From Salinisphaera orenii subsp. halophila YIM 95161 (GTDB lineage: Bacteria > Pseudomonadota > Gammaproteobacteria > Nevskiales > Salinisphaeraceae), in assembly GCF_003732545.1 (NCBI RefSeq), contig NZ_AYKF01000088.1:57340-121339 (forward strand): DNA of 64,000 bases, read 5' to 3'. The position numbers and the translations under genes were made by a program. This document shows, piece after piece, positions 47,314 to 55,833 of this stretch. The number at the start of each line of letters is the position of its first letter. Positions within the stretch are counted from its first letter, which is position 1. The notes under the pieces are model-generated. The model searched no databases. It was not told the DNA's origin and saw nothing but the letters and a program-made list of their open reading frames with translations.

Positions 47314-48690
47314 GTGGGTATCGTTCGCCTTCATACACGCCAGGCGGCCTACGTTGACGATCGCGCCCGCTTCAAGGCCGCGATGTTCTCGCGTCAGACC
47401 GGCAAGACGTTTGGCTCCACGCTCGAGGTCGTCGATGACTGCCTGGACGCCGAGTCCCAAGGCCGCAGCGAGCGCTGGGTGATCCTCTCGCGCGGCGAAC
47501 GCCAGGCGCGCGAGGCCATCAACGAAGGCGTGCGGGTGCATCTGGACAATTACCAGACCGCGTTCGAGGCGCTCGAGTACGATTGGCAGGCCCAGCATCG
47601 GGCGCTCGAAGTCGTGCTGCCGGGCGGCTCGCGGATCACCGCGCTGCCGGCCAACCCGGACACCGCTCGCGGCTTTTCAGCCAACGTGCTGCTCGACGAG
47701 TTCGCCTTTCATCAGGACAGCCGTGCGATCTGGCAGGCGCTGTTTCCGGTCGTGTCCAAACCGGGGCTCAAGCTGCGCGTGATCAGTACGCCCAACGGCA
47801 AGGGCAACAAGTTCTATGAGCTGATGACGATGGGCGATGAGCAGGCCCTGCGCGAGCGTGGCCACATCGAGGCCGAGGGCTGGAGCCTGCACTGCTGCGA
47901 TATCTACCAGGCCGTCGAAGGCGGGCTGGATCGCGACCCGGTCGAGCTCAAGAAAGCGATCGGCGACCCGGAAGCCTGGGCCCAGGAGTTCGAACTCCAG
48001 TGGCTCGACAGCGCCCACGCCTGGCTACCGTTCGATCTGATCGACGCGGCTGAACACGCCGATGCCGGCGATCCGGCCGGCTATGCCGGGGGCATCGCCT
48101 ACGTCGGCATCGATATCGCCGCCCGCAAGGATCTATTCGTGATCACCGTGGTCGAGCCGCGCGGCGATGTCGCCTGGGTGCGCGAGATCATCGAGCGCCG
48201 CGGCGCGACGTTCGCCGAGCAGGGCGCACTGCTGGACGACGTCATGCGTCGCTATACCGTGGGCCGCGTCTGCATCGACCAGACCGGCATGGGCGAAAAG
48301 CCCGTGGAAGACGCGAAGCGTCGATACGGCGAGTACCGCGTCGAGGGCGTGATGTTCACGGGGGCCAGCAAGCAGCTGCTCGCCACGACCGCCCGCGAGC
48401 AATTCGAGGACCGGCGCGTGCGCATCCCGGCCGGGCATCCGGAGCTGCGCGCGGACCTGCACAGCCTCAAGCGCATTCAGCTGCCCGGCGGCAATATCCG
48501 CTTCGACGCCGATCGCGATGCCGGCAGCCATGCCGACCGCACGTGGTCGCTGTTCCTCGCGCTGCATGCCGCGGATAACAGCGACTATCAGCCCTATGCC
48601 TACCAGCCGGTGCGAGCCGATCGAGACCTCGAGAACGGTCGGCCGATCGCGACGACCGGCGGCTTTGGTACCCAACGAGGCGCCTGGTAA
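47314..48690 (+). CDS. terminase large subunit (Mu gp28)
   Basis: A 458-aa packaging motor from a GTG start. The ATPase has a Walker A-like SRQTGKT at residues 26-32 and Walker B VLLDEFAF, followed by the coupling motif VISTPNGKGNKFYEL. The nuclease domain shows acidic residues in YVGIDIAARKDLFVI, CIDQTGMGEKP and GSHADRTWSL. It packages phage DNA into proheads and cuts it in host sequence after the right end. Confidence 0.9.
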   Translation: MGIVRLHTRQAAYVDDRARFKAAMFSRQTGKTFGSTLEVVDDCLDAESQGRSERWVILSRGERQAREAINEGVRVHLDNYQTAFEALEYDWQAQHRALEVVLPGGSRITALPANPDTARGFSANVLLDEFAFHQDSRAIWQALFPVVSKPGLKLRVISTPNGKGNKFYELMTMGDEQALRERGHIEAEGWSLHCCDIYQAVEGGLDRDPVELKKAIGDPEAWAQEFELQWLDSAHAWLPFDLIDAAEHADAGDPAGYAGGIAYVGIDIAARKDLFVITVVEPRGDVAWVREIIERRGATFAEQGALLDDVMRRYTVGRVCIDQTGMGEKPVEDAKRRYGEYRVEGVMFTGASKQLLATTAREQFEDRRVRIPAGHPELRADLHSLKRIQLPGGNIRFDADRDAGSHADRTWSLFLALHAADNSDYQPYAYQPVRADRDLENGRPIATTGGFGTQRGAW

Positions 48691-50297
48691 TGGCCGAATC
48701 CCCCATCCTGCAACGCGACGGCCGGCCGTTCGAGACCACCGAGCTGACCGAGGAGCTGGCCGCCCCGACGCTCACCGGCGTCCGCAGCGTCTGGACGCAG
48801 GGCGTGGCGGCCGGCATGACGCCGGCGCGGCTGGCTTCGATCCTACAGGCCGCGGCCGACGGCAACGCGCACGACTACCTGACGCTGGCCGAGGAGATGG
48901 AAGAGCGCGACCCGCACTACGCGGCCGTGCTCGGCACCCGCAAGCGCGCCGTCTCCGGCCTGCCGGTGCACGTGGAGGCGGCCAGCGATGACGGGCCCGG
49001 CGTGAAGCTGGCGGATGCCGTGCGCGAACTGGTGCGCCGGCCGGCGTTCGGCTATCTCGTCGATGATCAGCTCGACGCCCTGGGCAAGGGCTATTCGGTC
49101 AGCGAGATCCTATGGGACCGCTCGGGCGCCACCTGGGAGCCGATGGCGTACAAGCACCGCGACCCGCGCTTTTTCGAGTTCACGGACGCCAGCGGCCTGG
49201 AGAAGCTGGGCCTACTGGACGACAGCCAGCCCGGCCAGCCCTTGCCGATGCCCGGCTACAAGTTCGTCACGCACGTGCCGCGCCTCAAGAGCGGCATCCC
49301 GCTGCGCGGCGGGCTGGCGCGGCTGGTGGCCTTCGGCTGGATCTGCAAGGCCTACACGATGAAGGACTGGATCGCCTTCGCGGAGGTCTACGGCATGCCC
49401 CTGCGCCTGGGCCGCTACGGCCCGGGGGCGAGCGAGCGCGACGTGTCCATTCTGCGGCAGGCGGTGGCCAACATCGGCTCGGACGCGGCCGCGGTGCTGC
49501 CACGCTCGATGGAGATCGAGTTCCAGGACGTGGCCAGCGGCGGCGGCAGCGGCAACACGGATCTGTTCGAGCGGCTGGCCGACTGGGTGGACCGGCAGAC
49601 GTCCAAGGGCGTGCTGGGCCAGACCATGACCACCGACGCGCAGTCGGCCGGCCTGGGCAGCAACCAGGCCGGCGTGCACAACGAAGTCCGCGGCGACATC
49701 CTGGCCGCCGATGCCAAGCAGCTGAGCGACACGCTCAACCGCGACCTGGTGCGGCCGTACATCGACCTGAACTTCGGCCCGCAGCCGGCGTATCCGCGCA
49801 TCGAGCTGCAGGTGATCGAGCCGGAGGACATCGAAGGGCTGACCAAGGCGCTCGAGCGGCTGGTCCCGCTCGGGCTGCGCGTGGGCGGCTCGACCATGCG
49901 CGACAAGCTGGGCCTGCCGGATCCGGATGACGACGAGGAGGTGCTGACCCCGCCGCAGGGCGCGCCGAGCGGCCCGCCGCCGGCATTGAACCGCCGTTCA
50001 ACGCGCGATCGAAGCGGCCTCGAAACGGCGTTGAACCGGACCGACGCGCCCGCCCCGGCGGATGCCATCGACGACCTGACCGAGGCGCTCGCCGGCGACG
50101 ACGAGTGGGAAGAACAGCTGGAACCCCTGATCGACCCGATCGAGCAGCTGGCGGCCGAGGTGGATTCGCCGGAGGCGTTTCGCGCCCGGCTACCGGAGCT
50201 GCTGGAGCGGATGGACGCCGGCGAACTCCTCGAAAAGCTCGCCAATGCGACGTTTCGGGCGAGAGGATTGGGTGACGCGAACGACGGCGATAACTGA
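48690..50297 (+). CDS. portal protein (Mu gp29, DUF935)
   Basis: A 535-aa protein; start overlaps the terminase stop (TAATG). Typical DUF935 sequences include YKHRDPRFFEFTDASGLEKL, FAEVYGMPLRLGRYGPGASE and TTDAQSAGLGSNQAGVHNEV. The C terminus is a low-complexity acidic tail. It forms the dodecameric DNA gate at one head vertex. Its stop overlaps the MuF gene start (TGATG). Confidence 0.92.
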   Translation: MAESPILQRDGRPFETTELTEELAAPTLTGVRSVWTQGVAAGMTPARLASILQAAADGNAHDYLTLAEEMEERDPHYAAVLGTRKRAVSGLPVHVEAASDDGPGVKLADAVRELVRRPAFGYLVDDQLDALGKGYSVSEILWDRSGATWEPMAYKHRDPRFFEFTDASGLEKLGLLDDSQPGQPLPMPGYKFVTHVPRLKSGIPLRGGLARLVAFGWICKAYTMKDWIAFAEVYGMPLRLGRYGPGASERDVSILRQAVANIGSDAAAVLPRSMEIEFQDVASGGGSGNTDLFERLADWVDRQTSKGVLGQTMTTDAQSAGLGSNQAGVHNEVRGDILAADAKQLSDTLNRDLVRPYIDLNFGPQPAYPRIELQVIEPEDIEGLTKALERLVPLGLRVGGSTMRDKLGLPDPDDDEEVLTPPQGAPSGPPPALNRRSTRDRSGLETALNRTDAPAPADAIDDLTEALAGDDEWEEQLEPLIDPIEQLAAEVDSPEAFRARLPELLERMDAGELLEKLANATFRARGLGDANDGDN

Positions 50298-52585
50298 TGG
50301 CTGAAACCCGCAACCCCGGCCCAGTCCCCCAGGACGCGCTCGACTACTGGCGCGGCAAGGACGTGCGCCCGGGCTTTTCCCATGAGGACGTCTGGGGCGA
50401 CGAGCACGCGCACGCGTTCACCGTGGCCAAGATGACCAAGCTGGATCTGCTCGAGGACACGCGGGCCAGCCTCGAGGACGCCCTGGCCGAGGGCAAGACG
50501 TTCCGGCAGTGGTCCAACGAGATCCGGCCGCGGATGCAGGCCAAGGGCTGGTGGGGCGTCAAGGAGCAGATCGACCCGGCGACCGGGCTGCCCGAACGCG
50601 TGCAGCTGGGCAGCCCGCGCCGCTTGAAGACCATCTACCGCGCGAACATGCGCAGCGCCCGCGCCGCCGGCCAGTGGCAGCGGATCCAGCGGACGAAGGA
50701 GAGCCGCCCGTACCTGGTCTATCTGCTCGGGCCCAGCGAAGAACACCGCGCCGAACACGTCGATCTGCAGGGCCTGACGCTGCCGGTGGACGATCCGACC
50801 TGGGGCGAGATCTACCCGCCCAACGGGTACGGTTGTTTTTCCACGGATACGCTGGTGCGCTGCAACGCGCAGCTCGGGCTAAAAACCTGGTACGCGGGTG
50901 AAATGGTGGAGCTGCACTCGGCTCGTGGGAACCACTTCACCGCGACCGCTAACCATCCCGTACTCACCGCGCGGGGCTGGGTCGCCGCCGGCGACCTCCG
51001 CGAAGGCGATCAGTTGATCGATGCAGGTGTTGGTGTGGATGCCGGCATCGTCGGGGTCGTAGACGACGAACAGACGCCAGCCCGCGCCGACGATCTCTTC
51101 GATGCGCTCGCGCGCGAGCGACTTCGCGTCGTTCCAATGGCGGCGCACGATTTCTACGGCGACACGGTCGGCCGGCAGCCCGAAATCCAGGTTGCGAGTG
51201 CCGATGGCGATCTGATGGATCGCGTCGACGCCTCGGCGGATGAACGCATCCGCGAAGTGACTTTCGGTCGCGGTCTGCATCGCGGTGTTGAAGCCGCCAA
51301 CATTGCCCTGGGCTCGTCGCAGGCTACGTCGGTCGTCGGTAATACCGCGCAAACGCAGCATGCGGCCGACGCCCGGCTTGGACATGCCCAGACGGCGGGC
51401 AATCTCGGCCTGGCTGGTCAGGCCGGCGCGGTAGAGGGAGATGACACGACGTTCGGTCGCATCGTTCGTGGCATCTGCCGCCTGCCACGCCGCGCCCAGC
51501 AGCTGCTCGGTCTCGCCCCGCGCCTTGACACCGACCCAACGCTGCGCCGCTGCCGTGCTTCGGCCGCGCCGCTCAATGCCGTGCCGGTCGAGGATGCGAC
51601 CCAACGCGCCCCGGCTGACGCCCAGCTCTTTGGCCAGCTGCTGCAGCGGAATACCGGACTGGTAGCGACGGACGAAGTCCGCCTCGTTCGCAAGTTCGAG
51701 TGGTCGGGTCATGTGTACGACTTTGCTACGGATACCGGCTTGATCGTAGCCGGCGGCATTGTGGTAAGCAACTGCAAGTGCTACGTCAACCAGATCGACC
51801 AGGCGACGCGCGATCGCTACGTCGAGGACGGCGTGCCTGACGCCACGGCTGCCCAGGAGATCGACCCCGAGAGCGGCCTGCCGACCGGCCGGCGCGTCAC
51901 GCGTCAGGTGCCGGCGAAGACCGAGCGCCCCGAGCTCAAGCGCCGGCGCTACAAGAGCAAGCGCACCGGGCGCGAGCAGTACGCGCCCGAGGGCGTGCAT
52001 CCCGCCTGGGCCAACAACTCCGGCCAGGCGCGGGTGCGCACCCTGCGCGAAGCCCTCGCGGGCAAGATCGAAACAGCCGACCAGCAGCTGGCCCGCGAGT
52101 CCGTCAAGCGCGTGGTCGATAGCCCGGCGCTGACGCAGTTTCTGGACGAGGCGGACGCACACAAGGCGGTGCTGGCCCGCACGGCCGACGATATCGACGA
52201 GGCCGCGCGCCGGCGCATCATCGACGGCATCGGCGACCTGCCGGTGGCCTACGCCGACCGCGAGCTGGCCGAGCATGTCGGCAGCCAGACGCAGCTGGTG
52301 CGGATGTCGGCCGAGACGGCGGGCAAGCAGCTCGTGACGCATGCGGATCTGGTCAGCGGCGACTACCGGAATCTGGACGCACTGCTGGCCACCGGCGAGG
52401 TGTTGCGCGAAAGCGCGCGCGAGGTCGTGGTGTTCGGCGAGATCGAAGGCGAACTGTATCGCGCGGTGCTCAAACGGGCCGGCACGGACAATCGCGAGCT
52501 GTTCTTGAGCACCTTCCATCGCGCGAAGGCCAAGCAACATGGAAAGGCCCGCGAGGCGATGAAGCGCCTGCGGGCCTCGCGATGA
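50297..52585 (+). CDS. MuF/SPP1 gp7-type head morphogenesis protein (Mu gp30) interrupted by an intein
   Basis: A 762-codon precursor. Residues 1-179 and 493-762 are the exteins (449 aa after splicing, near the usual MuF length). The MuF core includes LKTIYRANMRSARAAGQWQR and YLVYLLGPSEEHRAEHVDLQ, then PPNGYG joined to CKCYVNQI, the conserved cysteine motif at the end of the domain. Residues 180-492 are an intein inserted exactly before that Cys. MuF proteins are minor head proteins acting at the portal. The reading frame is open throughout, so the protein is usable only if splicing works. Confidence 0.92.
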   Translation: MAETRNPGPVPQDALDYWRGKDVRPGFSHEDVWGDEHAHAFTVAKMTKLDLLEDTRASLEDALAEGKTFRQWSNEIRPRMQAKGWWGVKEQIDPATGLPERVQLGSPRRLKTIYRANMRSARAAGQWQRIQRTKESRPYLVYLLGPSEEHRAEHVDLQGLTLPVDDPTWGEIYPPNGYGCFSTDTLVRCNAQLGLKTWYAGEMVELHSARGNHFTATANHPVLTARGWVAAGDLREGDQLIDAGVGVDAGIVGVVDDEQTPARADDLFDALARERLRVVPMAAHDFYGDTVGRQPEIQVASADGDLMDRVDASADERIREVTFGRGLHRGVEAANIALGSSQATSVVGNTAQTQHAADARLGHAQTAGNLGLAGQAGAVEGDDTTFGRIVRGICRLPRRAQQLLGLAPRLDTDPTLRRCRASAAPLNAVPVEDATQRAPADAQLFGQLLQRNTGLVATDEVRLVRKFEWSGHVYDFATDTGLIVAGGIVVSNCKCYVNQIDQATRDRYVEDGVPDATAAQEIDPESGLPTGRRVTRQVPAKTERPELKRRRYKSKRTGREQYAPEGVHPAWANNSGQARVRTLREALAGKIETADQQLARESVKRVVDSPALTQFLDEADAHKAVLARTADDIDEAARRRIIDGIGDLPVAYADRELAEHVGSQTQLVRMSAETAGKQLVTHADLVSGDYRNLDALLATGEVLRESAREVVVFGEIEGELYRAVLKRAGTDNRELFLSTFHRAKAKQHGKAREAMKRLRASR
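50834..51772 (+). other. intein in the MuF head protein (313 codons)
   Basis: Block A starts with Cys1 (CFSTDTLVRC). Block B has the TxxH motif in ATANHPVLTARGW (Thr38, His41), then DLREGDQL. Block F reads HVYDFATDTGLIVAGGIVV and the end is SN, followed by Cys+1 of the C-extein. The usual penultimate His is Ser, and the block F His is absent, so it belongs to the non-canonical inteins whose last step uses other residues. Between blocks B and F lie about 220 codons with no endonuclease in frame; that DNA encodes an endonuclease on the opposite strand. Confidence 0.9.
50879..51712 (-). CDS. antisense-nested homing endonuclease candidate: double HTH plus Vsr/DUF559-like nuclease
   Basis: A 277-aa frame from ATG 51712 lies wholly inside the intein on the opposite strand, with codons in exact register. 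Two helix-turn-helix motifs are clear: LQQLAKELGVSRGALGRIL (residues about 23-41) and QAEIARRLGMSKPGVGRML (about 101-119). The nuclease core at about 150-222 reads IHQIAIGTRNLDFGL, VAVEIVRRHWND and GAGWRLFVVYD, the Vsr/PD-(D/E)XK pattern with Asp176, Glu187, His192 as candidate active residues. Codons 9-230 nearly all end in G or C; the last 45 do not, because there intein block B governs the sequence. No Shine-Dalgarno is evident. It is the presumed mobility enzyme of the intein. Confidence 0.8.
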   Translation of the reverse strand: MTRPLELANEADFVRRYQSGIPLQQLAKELGVSRGALGRILDRHGIERRGRSTAAAQRWVGVKARGETEQLLGAAWQAADATNDATERRVISLYRAGLTSQAEIARRLGMSKPGVGRMLRLRGITDDRRSLRRAQGNVGGFNTAMQTATESHFADAFIRRGVDAIHQIAIGTRNLDFGLPADRVAVEIVRRHWNDAKSLARERIEEIVGAGWRLFVVYDPDDAGIHTNTCIDQLIAFAEVAGGDPAPRGEYGMVSGRGEVVPTSRVQLHHFTRVPGF

Positions 52586-52766
52586 GCGTGCACGTGGCCG
52601 GGACTGGAAACCCCCGGCGATCCGCCTTAATCCGCGCTCTTGCGAAACGCGAACGGCTGCGGTGTCCAGATTCTCCGCATGACGCGTGCAGAATTAGAAT
52701 AACGCACGGCCCGGCTGCTCGCATCCGCCGTGTCGCCGGAGCGCCTGTGCGCCGCTGTGAGGAATC

Positions 52767-52801
52767 AAAAGGCCGCGCCCTCATGTTGGGTCGGCGCGGC
52801 C
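52767..52801 (-). terminator. terminator of the leftward accessory cassette
   Basis: GGCCGCGCC (52771-52779) and GGCGCGGCC (52793-52801) form a perfect 9-bp stem with a 13-nt loop; on the minus strand TTTT follows. It lies 53 bp beyond the stop of the leftward 174-aa gene. The rest of the 268-bp gap 52586-52853 is AT-richer than the phage average and contains no gene I can support. Confidence 0.75.
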
Positions 52802-52853
52802 GCAATGTCTCGTTAGAAACGTTTATCGAACATTTTAACGGCGTACCAGCGGG

Positions 52854-53378
52854 CTACGCGTCCACGAAAAATGCTTCGGGGTTCGTGAATCCGATCATGG
52901 CCAGCCCGAAGTAGGCGCGCAGCTTGTCCTCTTCACTGAGCCCTTGCCCGCGTTTGACACGAGAGACGAGGCCCGACGAATGGAAGATGCCGTTGTCCCA
53001 GGCGCGATCGGAAAAGCCGAACGCCTCCATGAACTCGAGATCGAGGGTGGACCGGGAAAGCGGCGCGGTCGAGGCCCGTGGGTTCGTGGGCGTCCAGCTG
53101 GCGTTGTCAGCCCAGACGTCGCGGCGCGGCACTAACGGCAGATCGAACTGATGCGCGTAGGCCACTTCGAAGAACCGTTTGCGCTCGAACGCGAACCACT
53201 CGCGGGGCGCGCCCAGCACGCCGCGCAGGCAGTCGGCGTCATCCATATCCAGCCACTTGCCGAACAGTGGTTTGGTGCCCTTCCCGCTGTAGAGCACCAG
53301 TCGGGCCGTATTGATCAGCGCGAACACTTCGTCGTCGCTTTTGTCCGATACGTCGATGGCGATAGGTGCGTCGCTCAT
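52854..53378 (-). CDS. leftward accessory (moron-like) hypothetical protein, 174 aa
   Basis: It starts MSDAPIAIDVSDKSDDEVFA and reads as a compact soluble protein with many aromatics (REWFAFERKRFFEVAYAHQF, LEFMEAFGFSDRAWDNGIFH, DKLRAYFGLAMIGFTNPEAF). I do not recognise the family. It is the second gene of a leftward pair inserted between the MuF and protease/scaffold genes, where Mu has late structural genes on the other strand. The C-terminal part resembles the DUF2384-type toxin-binding style only loosely; no toxin or antitoxin role can be claimed. Confidence 0.7.
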   Translation of the reverse strand: MSDAPIAIDVSDKSDDEVFALINTARLVLYSGKGTKPLFGKWLDMDDADCLRGVLGAPREWFAFERKRFFEVAYAHQFDLPLVPRRDVWADNASWTPTNPRASTAPLSRSTLDLEFMEAFGFSDRAWDNGIFHSSGLVSRVKRGQGLSEEDKLRAYFGLAMIGFTNPEAFFVDA

Positions 53379-53839: not shown

Positions 53840-54859
53840 ATGGACGAGTTGATCGCTGCCCTGTGCTTCCAGATACCGGCGCCCGCTGACGAAAGCGAGA
53901 GCGTCGACGGTTGGCGCGTGCTCATTCCGGCCCCCGATGCCAACGGCATGATCCGCGGCGACGACGGTCGCGCCTGGAAGATGAGCGATCCCGACGCGGT
54001 GGTCGCCACCTACACCGGTCCGCGCCCCATCGACGTGAACCACGCCGAGGATCTACAGGCCGCCGCCGGCAACCCCGCGCCGGCGTCCGGCTGGATCGAG
54101 GAGATTCGGGCCAACAACGGCGCGATCGAAGGCCGGCTGGCGTTCAACGCCCGCGGCGCCGCCTCCGTGCGCGATCGCGAGTACCGCTACCTCTCGCCGG
54201 CGTTCCGGTTTCATCCCGAGACGAAAGAGATCAAGCGGATCGATTCCGCGTCGCTCGTCAACACCCCGAACTTCGCGCTGGCGCTGAACCGGCGCGGCGC
54301 ACCCGACGCCAACGACAACCCCGAGGCCAACGCTATGGACCTGCTCGCCGAGCTGCGCACAGCGCTCAATCTCAAGGACGACGCGACCGAGGCGGATGCG
54401 CTCGCGGCCGTGAAGACCCAGGGCACCGAACTCGAGACCGCCCGCAACCGCCCGACCGATACGCCGCCGCTCGACAAGTTCGTGCCGCGGGGCGACTACG
54501 ACGCGCTCGAGCAGGCCAAGAACCGCGCCGAGACGCAGCTCGCCGAGCGGGACCAGGCCGATCACAAGGCGAAGGTGGACGCCGCGATCACCGCGGCCAA
54601 GGCCGCCGGCAAGATCACGCCGGCGACCGAGGACTACCACCGGGCCAACTGCCGCACGGCCGAGGGCCTGGAGGCGTTCCAGACGTACGTGGCGGCCGCG
54701 CCGGAGATCGGCGCCGACACCGGGCTGGACGGCAAGACGCCGGGCAGCGGCGCCGGCGAGGCGCTCACCGACGAGGAGAAGGCCGCCTGCCGCGCGATCG
54801 GCGTGGACGAGGCGACGTTCGCCGAACGCCGCGACGCCGACGCGAAGGCCTACGGCTGA
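53840..54859 (+). CDS. head maturation protease and scaffold (Mu gpI/Z-like)
   Basis: A 339-aa protein. The N-terminal half (to about residue 160) is the Mu I-type protease: WRVLIPAPDANGMIRGDDGR, RPIDVNHAEDLQAAAGNPAP (conserved His), YRYLSPAFRFHPETKEI. The C-terminal half is helical and acidic, a scaffold. In Mu the scaffold Z is also made from an internal start in the same frame, and a candidate start exists here at 54335. The protease trims the head proteins and scaffold during maturation. Confidence 0.88.
   Translation: MDELIAALCFQIPAPADESESVDGWRVLIPAPDANGMIRGDDGRAWKMSDPDAVVATYTGPRPIDVNHAEDLQAAAGNPAPASGWIEEIRANNGAIEGRLAFNARGAASVRDREYRYLSPAFRFHPETKEIKRIDSASLVNTPNFALALNRRGAPDANDNPEANAMDLLAELRTALNLKDDATEADALAAVKTQGTELETARNRPTDTPPLDKFVPRGDYDALEQAKNRAETQLAERDQADHKAKVDAAITAAKAAGKITPATEDYHRANCRTAEGLEAFQTYVAAAPEIGADTGLDGKTPGSGAGEALTDEEKAACRAIGVDEATFAERRDADAKAYG
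54335..54859 (+). CDS. internal-start scaffold protein (Mu gpZ-like)
   Basis: An in-frame ATG at 54335 (MDLLAELRTALNLKDDATEA) with GAGG 9 bases upstream would give a separate 174-aa scaffold identical to the C-terminal half of the protease precursor. It follows the Ala/Asn-rich linker after the protease domain. Assigned by analogy to Mu I/Z. Confidence 0.55.
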   Translation: MDLLAELRTALNLKDDATEADALAAVKTQGTELETARNRPTDTPPLDKFVPRGDYDALEQAKNRAETQLAERDQADHKAKVDAAITAAKAAGKITPATEDYHRANCRTAEGLEAFQTYVAAAPEIGADTGLDGKTPGSGAGEALTDEEKAACRAIGVDEATFAERRDADAKAYG

Positions 54860-54903: not shown

Positions 54904-55833
54904 ATGATTATCACCCCGCAGACCATCAAGGCGCTGTTCACGAATTTTCGCCAGGAGTTCCAGGGGGCGCTGACGGTCGCCCCGTCCGCATGGAACCAGG
55001 TGGCGATGATGGTGCCGTCGAGCACGCGCACGAATACCTACGGCTTTCTCGGTCAGTTTCCGCAGCTGCGCGAGTGGGTGGGTGAGCGTGTCATCAAGGA
55101 CATGGCCGCGCAGAGCTACGCGATCGAGAACAAGACGTACGAGTCGACCGTGGGCATCTCGCGCGACGACATGGAGGACGACAACCTCGGCATCTACTCG
55201 CCGATGGTCCAGGAGATGGGCCGCGCGGCGGGCGTGTTCCCCGACGAGAATCTGGTCTTCCCCCTGTTCGACAAGGGGTTCACCACCGCCTGCTACGACG
55301 GCCAGAACTTCTTCGACACCGAGCACCCGGTCTACGCCAACACCGACGGTACCGGGTCCGTTACGAGCGTATCGAACTACACCGCCGGCCCGACCGACGG
55401 CGATGGCAACCCGACGAATCCGCGCTGGTATCTGCTGGACATGAGCCGCGCGCTCAAGCCGTTCATCTATCAGCGCCGCGAGGCGCCGAACTTCACCCAG
55501 ATGACCGGCATGACCGACGAAGCCGTGTTCATGGAAAACCAGTTCCGCATGGGCGTACGGGCGCGTGGCAACGGTGGGTTCGGCCTCTGGCAGCTGGCGC
55601 ACGCCTGTGACCTGGAGCTGACGCCGGACAACTTCCGCACGGTCTACGACCGGATGCGCACGGTGAAGGCCGACGGCGGCCGGCCGCTGGGCATCAACCC
55701 GACGCTGCTGGTCTGCCCGCCCGAGCTGGAAAAGCAGGCCGAGCAGATCCTCAAGATCGACACATTGGCCGGCGGTGGCGGCAACCCGAACTACAACAAG
55801 GCGGACGTGCTCTCAACGGTCTGGCTCGGATAA
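54904..55833 (+). CDS. major capsid protein (Mu gpT-like)
   Basis: A 309-aa HK97-fold protein: MIITPQTIKALFTNFRQEFQ, YGFLGQFPQLREWVGERVIK, YESTVGISRDDMEDDNLGIY and RPLGINPTLLVCPPELEKQA are all typical of the Mu major head subunit family. It directly follows the scaffold gene (GGAGACGAGCCG before the ATG). Confidence 0.93.
   Translation: MIITPQTIKALFTNFRQEFQGALTVAPSAWNQVAMMVPSSTRTNTYGFLGQFPQLREWVGERVIKDMAAQSYAIENKTYESTVGISRDDMEDDNLGIYSPMVQEMGRAAGVFPDENLVFPLFDKGFTTACYDGQNFFDTEHPVYANTDGTGSVTSVSNYTAGPTDGDGNPTNPRWYLLDMSRALKPFIYQRREAPNFTQMTGMTDEAVFMENQFRMGVRARGNGGFGLWQLAHACDLELTPDNFRTVYDRMRTVKADGGRPLGINPTLLVCPPELEKQAEQILKIDTLAGGGGNPNYNKADVLSTVWLG

Follow-up and report, generated by a model that had tools for sequence, protein, structure and literature searches.

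A predicted homing endonuclease gene nested antisense within a predicted intein of a Mu-like phage head gene

The window analysed here, a stretch of 64,000 nucleotides from Salinisphaera orenii subsp. halophila YIM 95161 (assembly GCF_003732545.1, contig NZ_AYKF01000088.1, positions 57,340 to 121,339), contains the genes of a Mu-like prophage, with a Mu-like head operon on the plus strand (terminase, portal, MuF, protease and major head protein, by Pfam). The gene of the MuF-like minor head protein is interrupted in frame by a predicted intein, and the minus strand of this intein encodes a predicted Vsr/I-Bth0305I-like nuclease with two helix-turn-helix (HTH) motifs (Table 1). A first-pass annotation, made from the letters alone, had placed a minus-strand gene for a 277-residue protein across codons 16–293 of a 939-bp intein, and these coordinates proved exact. 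The start codon of the nuclease gene falls on intein codon 293 and its stop on codon 16, in exact register with the sense codons, and its ATG, read on the plus strand, is the CAT that encodes the His of the sense motif GHVYDF.

Table 1. Coordinates of the features discussed, in positions of the window unless a locus handle (L) precedes them.
Feature	Coordinates	Strand	Basis
Antisense nuclease gene, 277 aa + TAG, from ATG	50879-51712	-	Open reading frame, homologues
First HTH motif, residues 10-43 (Pfam region 11-44)	51584-51685	-	HTH_7 5.3e-8, HTH_23 3.4e-7; helices in model
Second HTH motif, residues 85-121 (Pfam region 85-120)	51350-51460	-	HTH_24 2.8e-7, MarR_2 2.6e-7
Vsr-like nuclease domain, residues 147-243 (E150, D176, E187)	50984-51274	-	Predicted
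Nuclease C-terminal tail over sense block B	50882-50983	-	Neither strand's wobble base favoured
Predicted intein, 939 bp, 313 codons, between GYG and CKC of the MuF CxC motif	50834-51772	+	Sequence
N-terminal splicing part, Cys1 + TANHPVL block	50834-51028	+	RecA mini-intein match, alignment of relatives
Read-through sense spacer, without confident structure	51029-51661	+	pLDDT
C-terminal splicing part, GHVYDF ... GGIVVSN	51662-51772	+	Sequence, alignment, model
MuF-like minor head protein gene including intein, 762-aa precursor	50297-52585	+	Phage_Mu_F E 1.5e-14
Different Gordonia intein with antisense LAGLIDADG-like gene	L107:1074-1898, L109:1064-1888 (also L108, L110)
Free-standing nuclease relative and MuF gene	L146:455-1348 and 1342-2055
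In-frame (sense) Vsr-like domain in intein of UDG-family gene, uncultured virus	L009:5089-7317
Terminase	47314-48690	+	Pfam
Portal	48690-50297	+	Pfam
Protease	53840-54859	+	Pfam
Major head protein	54904-55833	+	Pfam

Both HTH motifs of the first-pass annotation were recovered with Pfam. For its nuclease core, described there as Vsr- or DUF559-like, Pfam matches were expected, and these were obtained in the family (PF18741, MTES_1575, in 12 of 19 members at E ≤ 0.01, best 5.8e-9; DUF559 in three of 19), not in the window protein itself, whose Pfam matches at E ≤ 0.01 include neither PF18741 nor any other nuclease family. Sequence searches of the PDB returned nearly only DNA-binding proteins with the nuclease alignment as query, none at E ≤ 0.001, and one regulator (E 0.29) with the single window protein, so that a fold search was needed. 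The AlphaFold model of the antisense protein (mean predicted local distance difference test, pLDDT, 74) resembles I-Bth0305I (3r3p) and Vsr, in agreement with the proposed core as far as a model can indicate. The catalytic set of Vsr and the EDxHD homing endonucleases is E-D-x-H-D; E150 is present in 18 of 19 members and D176 and E187 in all 19, whereas H192 and D195 are less often kept (below).

On the plus strand, the insertion carries Cys1, TANHPVL and GHVYDF...VVSN, followed by the +1 Cys. Class 1 inteins are marked by a nucleophile at residue 1, a TxxH in block B, a terminal Asn and a +1 Cys, and the corresponding residues here are C1, TANH, N313 and the +1 Cys. Across 19 aligned inteins Cys1 is found in 18, H41 and N313 are invariant and T38 is kept in at least 90%. 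Block B of the window intein matches the Mtu RecA mini-intein (E 1e-4), and the cut-off of Intein_splicing (PF14890) is exceeded in the relatives L145 (38.2 bits) and L150 (37.8 bits). In a sense model built from 9 alignment rows, residues 21–60 are among the best predicted, and pLDDT lies below 50 at residues 64–89 and 91–277, mostly at 20–25. The top Foldseek matches of this low-confidence model are Mtu RecA mini-inteins, over about 50–80 columns, and the support it lends is weak because the model is poor. The middle of the sense product is likely mere stop-free filler. In Rhodococcus phage REQ3 (L023:2767-3441) the intein has Ala1 for Cys1 and the nuclease frame is without the HTH part.

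Searching with the window protein gave 15 proteins at E ≤ 1e-3, 13 of them at 50–61% identity. Loci were taken from IMG/VR (8), GTDB genomes (2), phage records and one plasmid record. Phage records at E ≤ 1e-3 numbered 40 with the window protein and 129 with a distant member as query, and those inspected comprised 13 phage records via window-protein matches, 1 plasmid, 9 via DNA similarity and 7 via matches to the L016 protein. After removal of L010 (duplicate of L003) and L001 (the window itself), 32 distinct family loci were counted (the window, L002–L008 and L011–L025, 23 in all; L114; L009; L144–L150), close relatives among them being L004/L005, L006/L007, L012/L024/L025, L021/L022 and L019/L114. 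The nuclease frame lies antisense and in exact register inside a predicted intein in 30 of the 32, with hosts that include Pseudomonadota, Gordonia, Rhodococcus and a Chloroflexota plasmid, and the nested architecture is the same in loci of 42–53% guanine-plus-cytosine (GC) content. A broken minus frame, by which the first-pass annotation would have been contradicted, occurs in none of the 30 nested loci, all of which were found by nuclease similarity. Phage_Mu_F matches 17 of the 20 host genes scanned with Pfam, one of them the uninterrupted gene of L146; the other matches are VG15 (L016), Phage_min_cap2 (L023) and a dCMP deaminase (L149; PF00383, 5e-11). The arrangement is thus, beyond what that annotation had described, widespread and not confined to MuF, and it occurs with a second nuclease family as well (below). 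The L149 gene (L149:616-1968, Virus Rctr197k) is annotated as head morphogenesis and combines the dCMP deaminase match with an intein-like insertion that carries an antisense nuclease relative.

Two loci depart from the nested state. At L146 (Acinetobacter phage IME285) the nuclease relative is a free-standing gene; the MuF gene that it faces is uninterrupted and keeps its CKC motif, and the strand opposite the nuclease gene is full of stops; this is possibly a precursor state of nesting. At L009 a distant relative (28% over residues 150–217) lies in frame inside an intein of a UDG-family gene. Nesting is therefore a state and not a property of the nuclease family. The nuclease gene of L146 is annotated as a hypothetical protein. 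Among 369 genomes of the same class as the window, 39 had a match, the only full-model one among the matches listed being that of the window's genome and the others partial; two genomes of the same genus gave no match. Since no inspected annotated record with a nested copy lists a gene in the antisense frame, such genes stay hidden. In the record of Salmonella phage PK2 the matching stretch holds additional hypothetical proteins, and in phage Snoke (L147:1587-3446) the intein was annotated by the depositors, the antisense gene was not.

The distribution of nucleotide differences was compared between strands. The register places the antisense wobble base on sense position 1 and, conversely, the sense wobble base on antisense position 1; sites within a pair were treated as independent. 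Among nine close inteins, differences per site at antisense positions 1 and 3 were 0.522 and 0.220 at the block A end, 0.245 and 0.395 in the nuclease part, and 0.581 and 0.208 at the block F/G end. Seven pairs gave 89 vs 27 differences at these positions for the ends outside the nuclease gene (P 6e-9), 286 vs 442 for the interior (P 8e-9) and 51 vs 41, without bias, for the nuclease tail over block B (P 0.35). Wobble variation switches strand, so the splicing ends are constrained in sense and the middle in antisense. The minus frame is thus conserved in related inteins and the sense codons of the middle are relaxed, an outcome in favour of the first-pass annotation, which had proposed conservation of the two frames as a check; the tail over block B fits constraint on both strands, as judged from these counts. 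Across the HTH and nuclease parts, relatives are more alike in the antisense protein than in the sense one.

Because every TTA, CTA or TCA codon of the nuclease frame would put a stop into the sense frame, the number of such codons was compared with that expected from the codon usage of neighbouring genes. In 23 nested loci 72.5 were expected and 0 seen (log10 P -34.9 if the loci are independent; -28.5 when each near-identical group is represented once, 18 loci), and six further nested loci, with 1.1–10.8 expected each, also had 0. Single-locus P values reached 5e-8 (a Vibrio phage), 3e-6 (an Idiomarinaceae phage) and 4e-6 (Aaphi23), and most of the weight is carried by low-GC phages. Such codons do occur in the controls, 12 among the 297 of the free-standing relative and 9 among the 90 of the in-frame domain. 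In the window alone, sense openness has P 0.2 and 3 of 56 control windows are open; openness is weak evidence there, and the case is comparative.

In 17 of 23 loci the nuclease starts 20 codons short of the end of the intein. These starts and that of L014 (codon 21) are the reverse complement of the His codon in a GHVYD-like motif, which is CAT (antisense ATG) in 17 of 18 loci and CAC (GTG) in one. Extein His codons are more often CAC than CAT in 16 of the 23, and the excess of CAT over extein His usage has a log10 P of -8.2 with the 18 loci treated as independent. The starts of L018 and L020–L023 were chosen by the analyst and are uncertain, and the CAT test was confined to loci without a chosen start. 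A GGAG or GAGG was seen upstream, by eye, in all six loci of the later set.

Exact empty sites (INC|RC) were found in Gordonia phages Bibwit, Shivanishola and Jabberwocky. With the MuF gene of Vivi2, intein included, as query, coverage is 80% or more in 7 of 110 Gordonia records, and some of the remaining ones carry another intein; with a coliphage gene as query this holds for 4 of 183 records. A strict pattern of the uninterrupted motif was found in 68 of 80 MuF loci from viral contigs (12 unmatched, one of them, L082, with a variant); these were the best 80 of 583 in an extein scan seeded partly with the uninterrupted motif and therefore biased to empty sites. Intein and extein relationships are incongruent: L004 and L005 share 96% of the nuclease and 79% of the extein, and for L002 the closest nuclease is that of L011 (67%), the closest extein that of L006 (59%, compared with 37% for L011). 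In the accessible part of a metagenome study (PMC7468147), an intein in a phage minor head gene, which could belong to this family, varies within a population, and the accessible part of another report (PMC11162368) describes a minor-head intein of coliphage KMB36 without an antisense gene.

At the same MuF site, Gordonia phages Lennon, Thing3, Barsten and SchottB carry a different intein of 275 codons, in two distinct versions. Its antisense in-register frame encodes 196 residues beginning MKLDPVAAAYVAAFIDGEGTVTV. The Pfam scan of this protein gave no match; I-MsoI was found in the PDB (E 1.3e-3), PHROG 5046, labelled HNH endonuclease, matches at 2e-15, and a homologue carries PF00961 and PF14528, which are LAGLIDADG families. 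Codons 1–130 of the two versions differ at 7, 2 and 40 antisense positions 1, 2 and 3, and the flanks differ the opposite way (19/13/8 and 15/4/4). The antisense arrangement thus occurs with two unrelated nucleases, and with a second, LAGLIDADG-like antisense gene the nesting is not an accident of one family.

From these results, the conserved 277-residue antisense protein is very probably the intein's own homing endonuclease, of predicted Vsr/I-Bth0305I-like type. On the plus strand, translation of the head gene would continue through the intein without a break, the short ends of the intein would form the predicted splicing (Hint) domain, and excision would restore CKC. The minus strand would yield the nuclease as an independent product, which would use its HTH motifs to bind the MuF site that lacks an intein and would cut there, and repair from an intein-bearing copy would install the intein together with both readings. 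Such an arrangement would uncouple endonuclease production from that of the capsid protein, as the first-pass annotation proposed.

Several observations weigh against a homing endonuclease of this kind within a functional intein. The best fold match has E 7.4e-3 and none reaches E 1e-3, and two residues of the catalytic set are poorly kept (H192 in only 10 of 19 members, D195 in only 6). For the intein, Intein_splicing reaches only E 1.1e-3 and 21.6 bits in the window, under the cut-off of 35.8; Ser precedes the terminal Asn, where inteins usually have His; and the sense model as a whole is of low quality (mean pLDDT 35.6). Only 9 of 23 loci have a GGAG or GAGG in the 20 nucleotides upstream of the start, the window not being among them, and no sigma-70-like promoter for the minus gene was found in 50700–52700. 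The closest uninterrupted coliphage, BEU33, has a junction one codon shorter and is not an exact empty allele. All 32 loci were found by similarity to the nuclease, a procedure that decayed or nuclease-less MuF inteins would escape. The weak catalytic residues also speak for a different reading, by which the antisense protein is real and now acts as a DNA-binding regulator or is a decayed nuclease and does not move the intein, which is inherited with the phage; the predominance of HTH families among the profile matches and the modest interior bias of the window pair (85 vs 116) are in its favour. Invariance of D176 and E187, patchy presence with empty sites, the intein/extein incongruence and the LAGLIDADG-like family at the same position speak against it, and it is regarded as improbable.

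That the minus frame is a spurious one of a GC-rich gene, sense conservation mimicking antisense conservation, could draw on the frequent openness of in-register antisense frames (269 of 1244 overlapping same-length windows of neighbouring genes) and on the continuation of the minus open reading frame into the extein as a frame of 553 residues. The interior differences, however, favour the antisense wobble position, antisense identity is the higher one in the HTH and nuclease parts, the architecture persists at 42–53% GC and a relative exists as a free-standing gene, which leaves this explanation a very small probability; it and a sense-domain reading were both rejected on the wobble switch and the avoidance of sense stops. 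Some nuclear group I introns carry an endonuclease gene in antisense, so that the insertion might be such an intron or another RNA-level element; its open sense frame with intein blocks and the count of 0 Rfam families at gathering score in 50000–53000 speak against this, and we consider it the least probable of the explanations weighed.

We lean slightly towards a wider reading, to be taken as a whole, in which these elements would form a separate intein class with splicing and mobility on opposite DNA strands. The nuclease would take its ribosome-binding site and start codon from the reverse complement of HVY(N/D)L; the class would have formed at least twice, with unrelated Vsr-like and LAGLIDADG-like nucleases, and would occupy several MuF positions and at least one other gene (dCMP-deaminase-like) in phages of several bacterial phyla; its likely precursor would be a free-standing nuclease gene facing an uninterrupted MuF gene.

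The textbook intein combines a splicing domain with an in-frame endonuclease, both within a single polypeptide embedded in the host protein. The window intein shares with canonical mobile inteins, as far as these could be compared, the splicing blocks, the insertion in a conserved motif, precise empty sites and the position of the nuclease between blocks B and F of the usual nomenclature; it differs in that the nuclease has a gene of its own on the opposite strand, the middle of the sense frame being probably filler. With I-Bth0305I, an EDxHD/Vsr-like enzyme that resides in a group I intron, the predicted catalytic fold and separate DNA-binding modules are shared, whereas the catalytic residues are only partly matched and the window nuclease is antisense in an intein. 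In 'fractured genes', free-standing Vsr-like nucleases are reportedly found between split-intein halves; these likewise associate such a nuclease with inteins, but the intein there is split with the nuclease between its halves and the window intein is continuous and overlapped antisense. According to the accessible part of a review (PMC3943268), canonical inteins and their nuclease are translated as one fused product. Closest among the readable reports is that of the ShiLan-type insertion (PMC11855218, accessible part), with an HNH nuclease in a third frame of the same strand and a GTG start early in the insertion, in which its authors found no splicing domain. There, too, a nuclease is hidden in an insertion and the host frame stays open; the window insertion, however, has intein blocks and its nuclease on the opposite strand, and so, by the text available, is not ShiLan-type. 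Among the papers listed from the open PMC literature, judged mostly by title and start of abstract, none treats an antisense endonuclease within an intein; overlap is possible with Gosselin et al. 2025 (bioRxiv 10.1101/2025.01.02.630785), whose title refers to actinobacteriophage inteins of 'non-canonical architecture' and which may include the Gordonia cases.

The wider reading, if correct, would break the rule that inteins and their endonucleases are produced in one piece. With the proposed arrangement, the endonuclease could come under separate control, for example be expressed when the late head genes are not, and no folded nuclease need be part of the splicing precursor. Such long in-register antisense overlaps hold two conserved products that can be separated base by base, and the natural series of free-standing neighbour, antisense-nested and in-frame nuclease bears on how homing endonucleases and splicing elements join.

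Near the intein, a terminator-like hairpin lies at 50813–50829 (+), just before the insertion point, and terminator-like sites in 50700–52700 number 4 vs 1.1 in shuffles. Downstream, an open reading frame of 174 residues at 52854–53378 (-) faces the head operon and has no Pfam or PHROG match at E ≤ 1. The C-terminal MuF exteins of L004 (L004:5167-7563) and L008 (L008:5137-7599) end in PBECR3 and PBECR2 nuclease-like domains, respectively, so the MuF proteins that host the intein vary in their tails.

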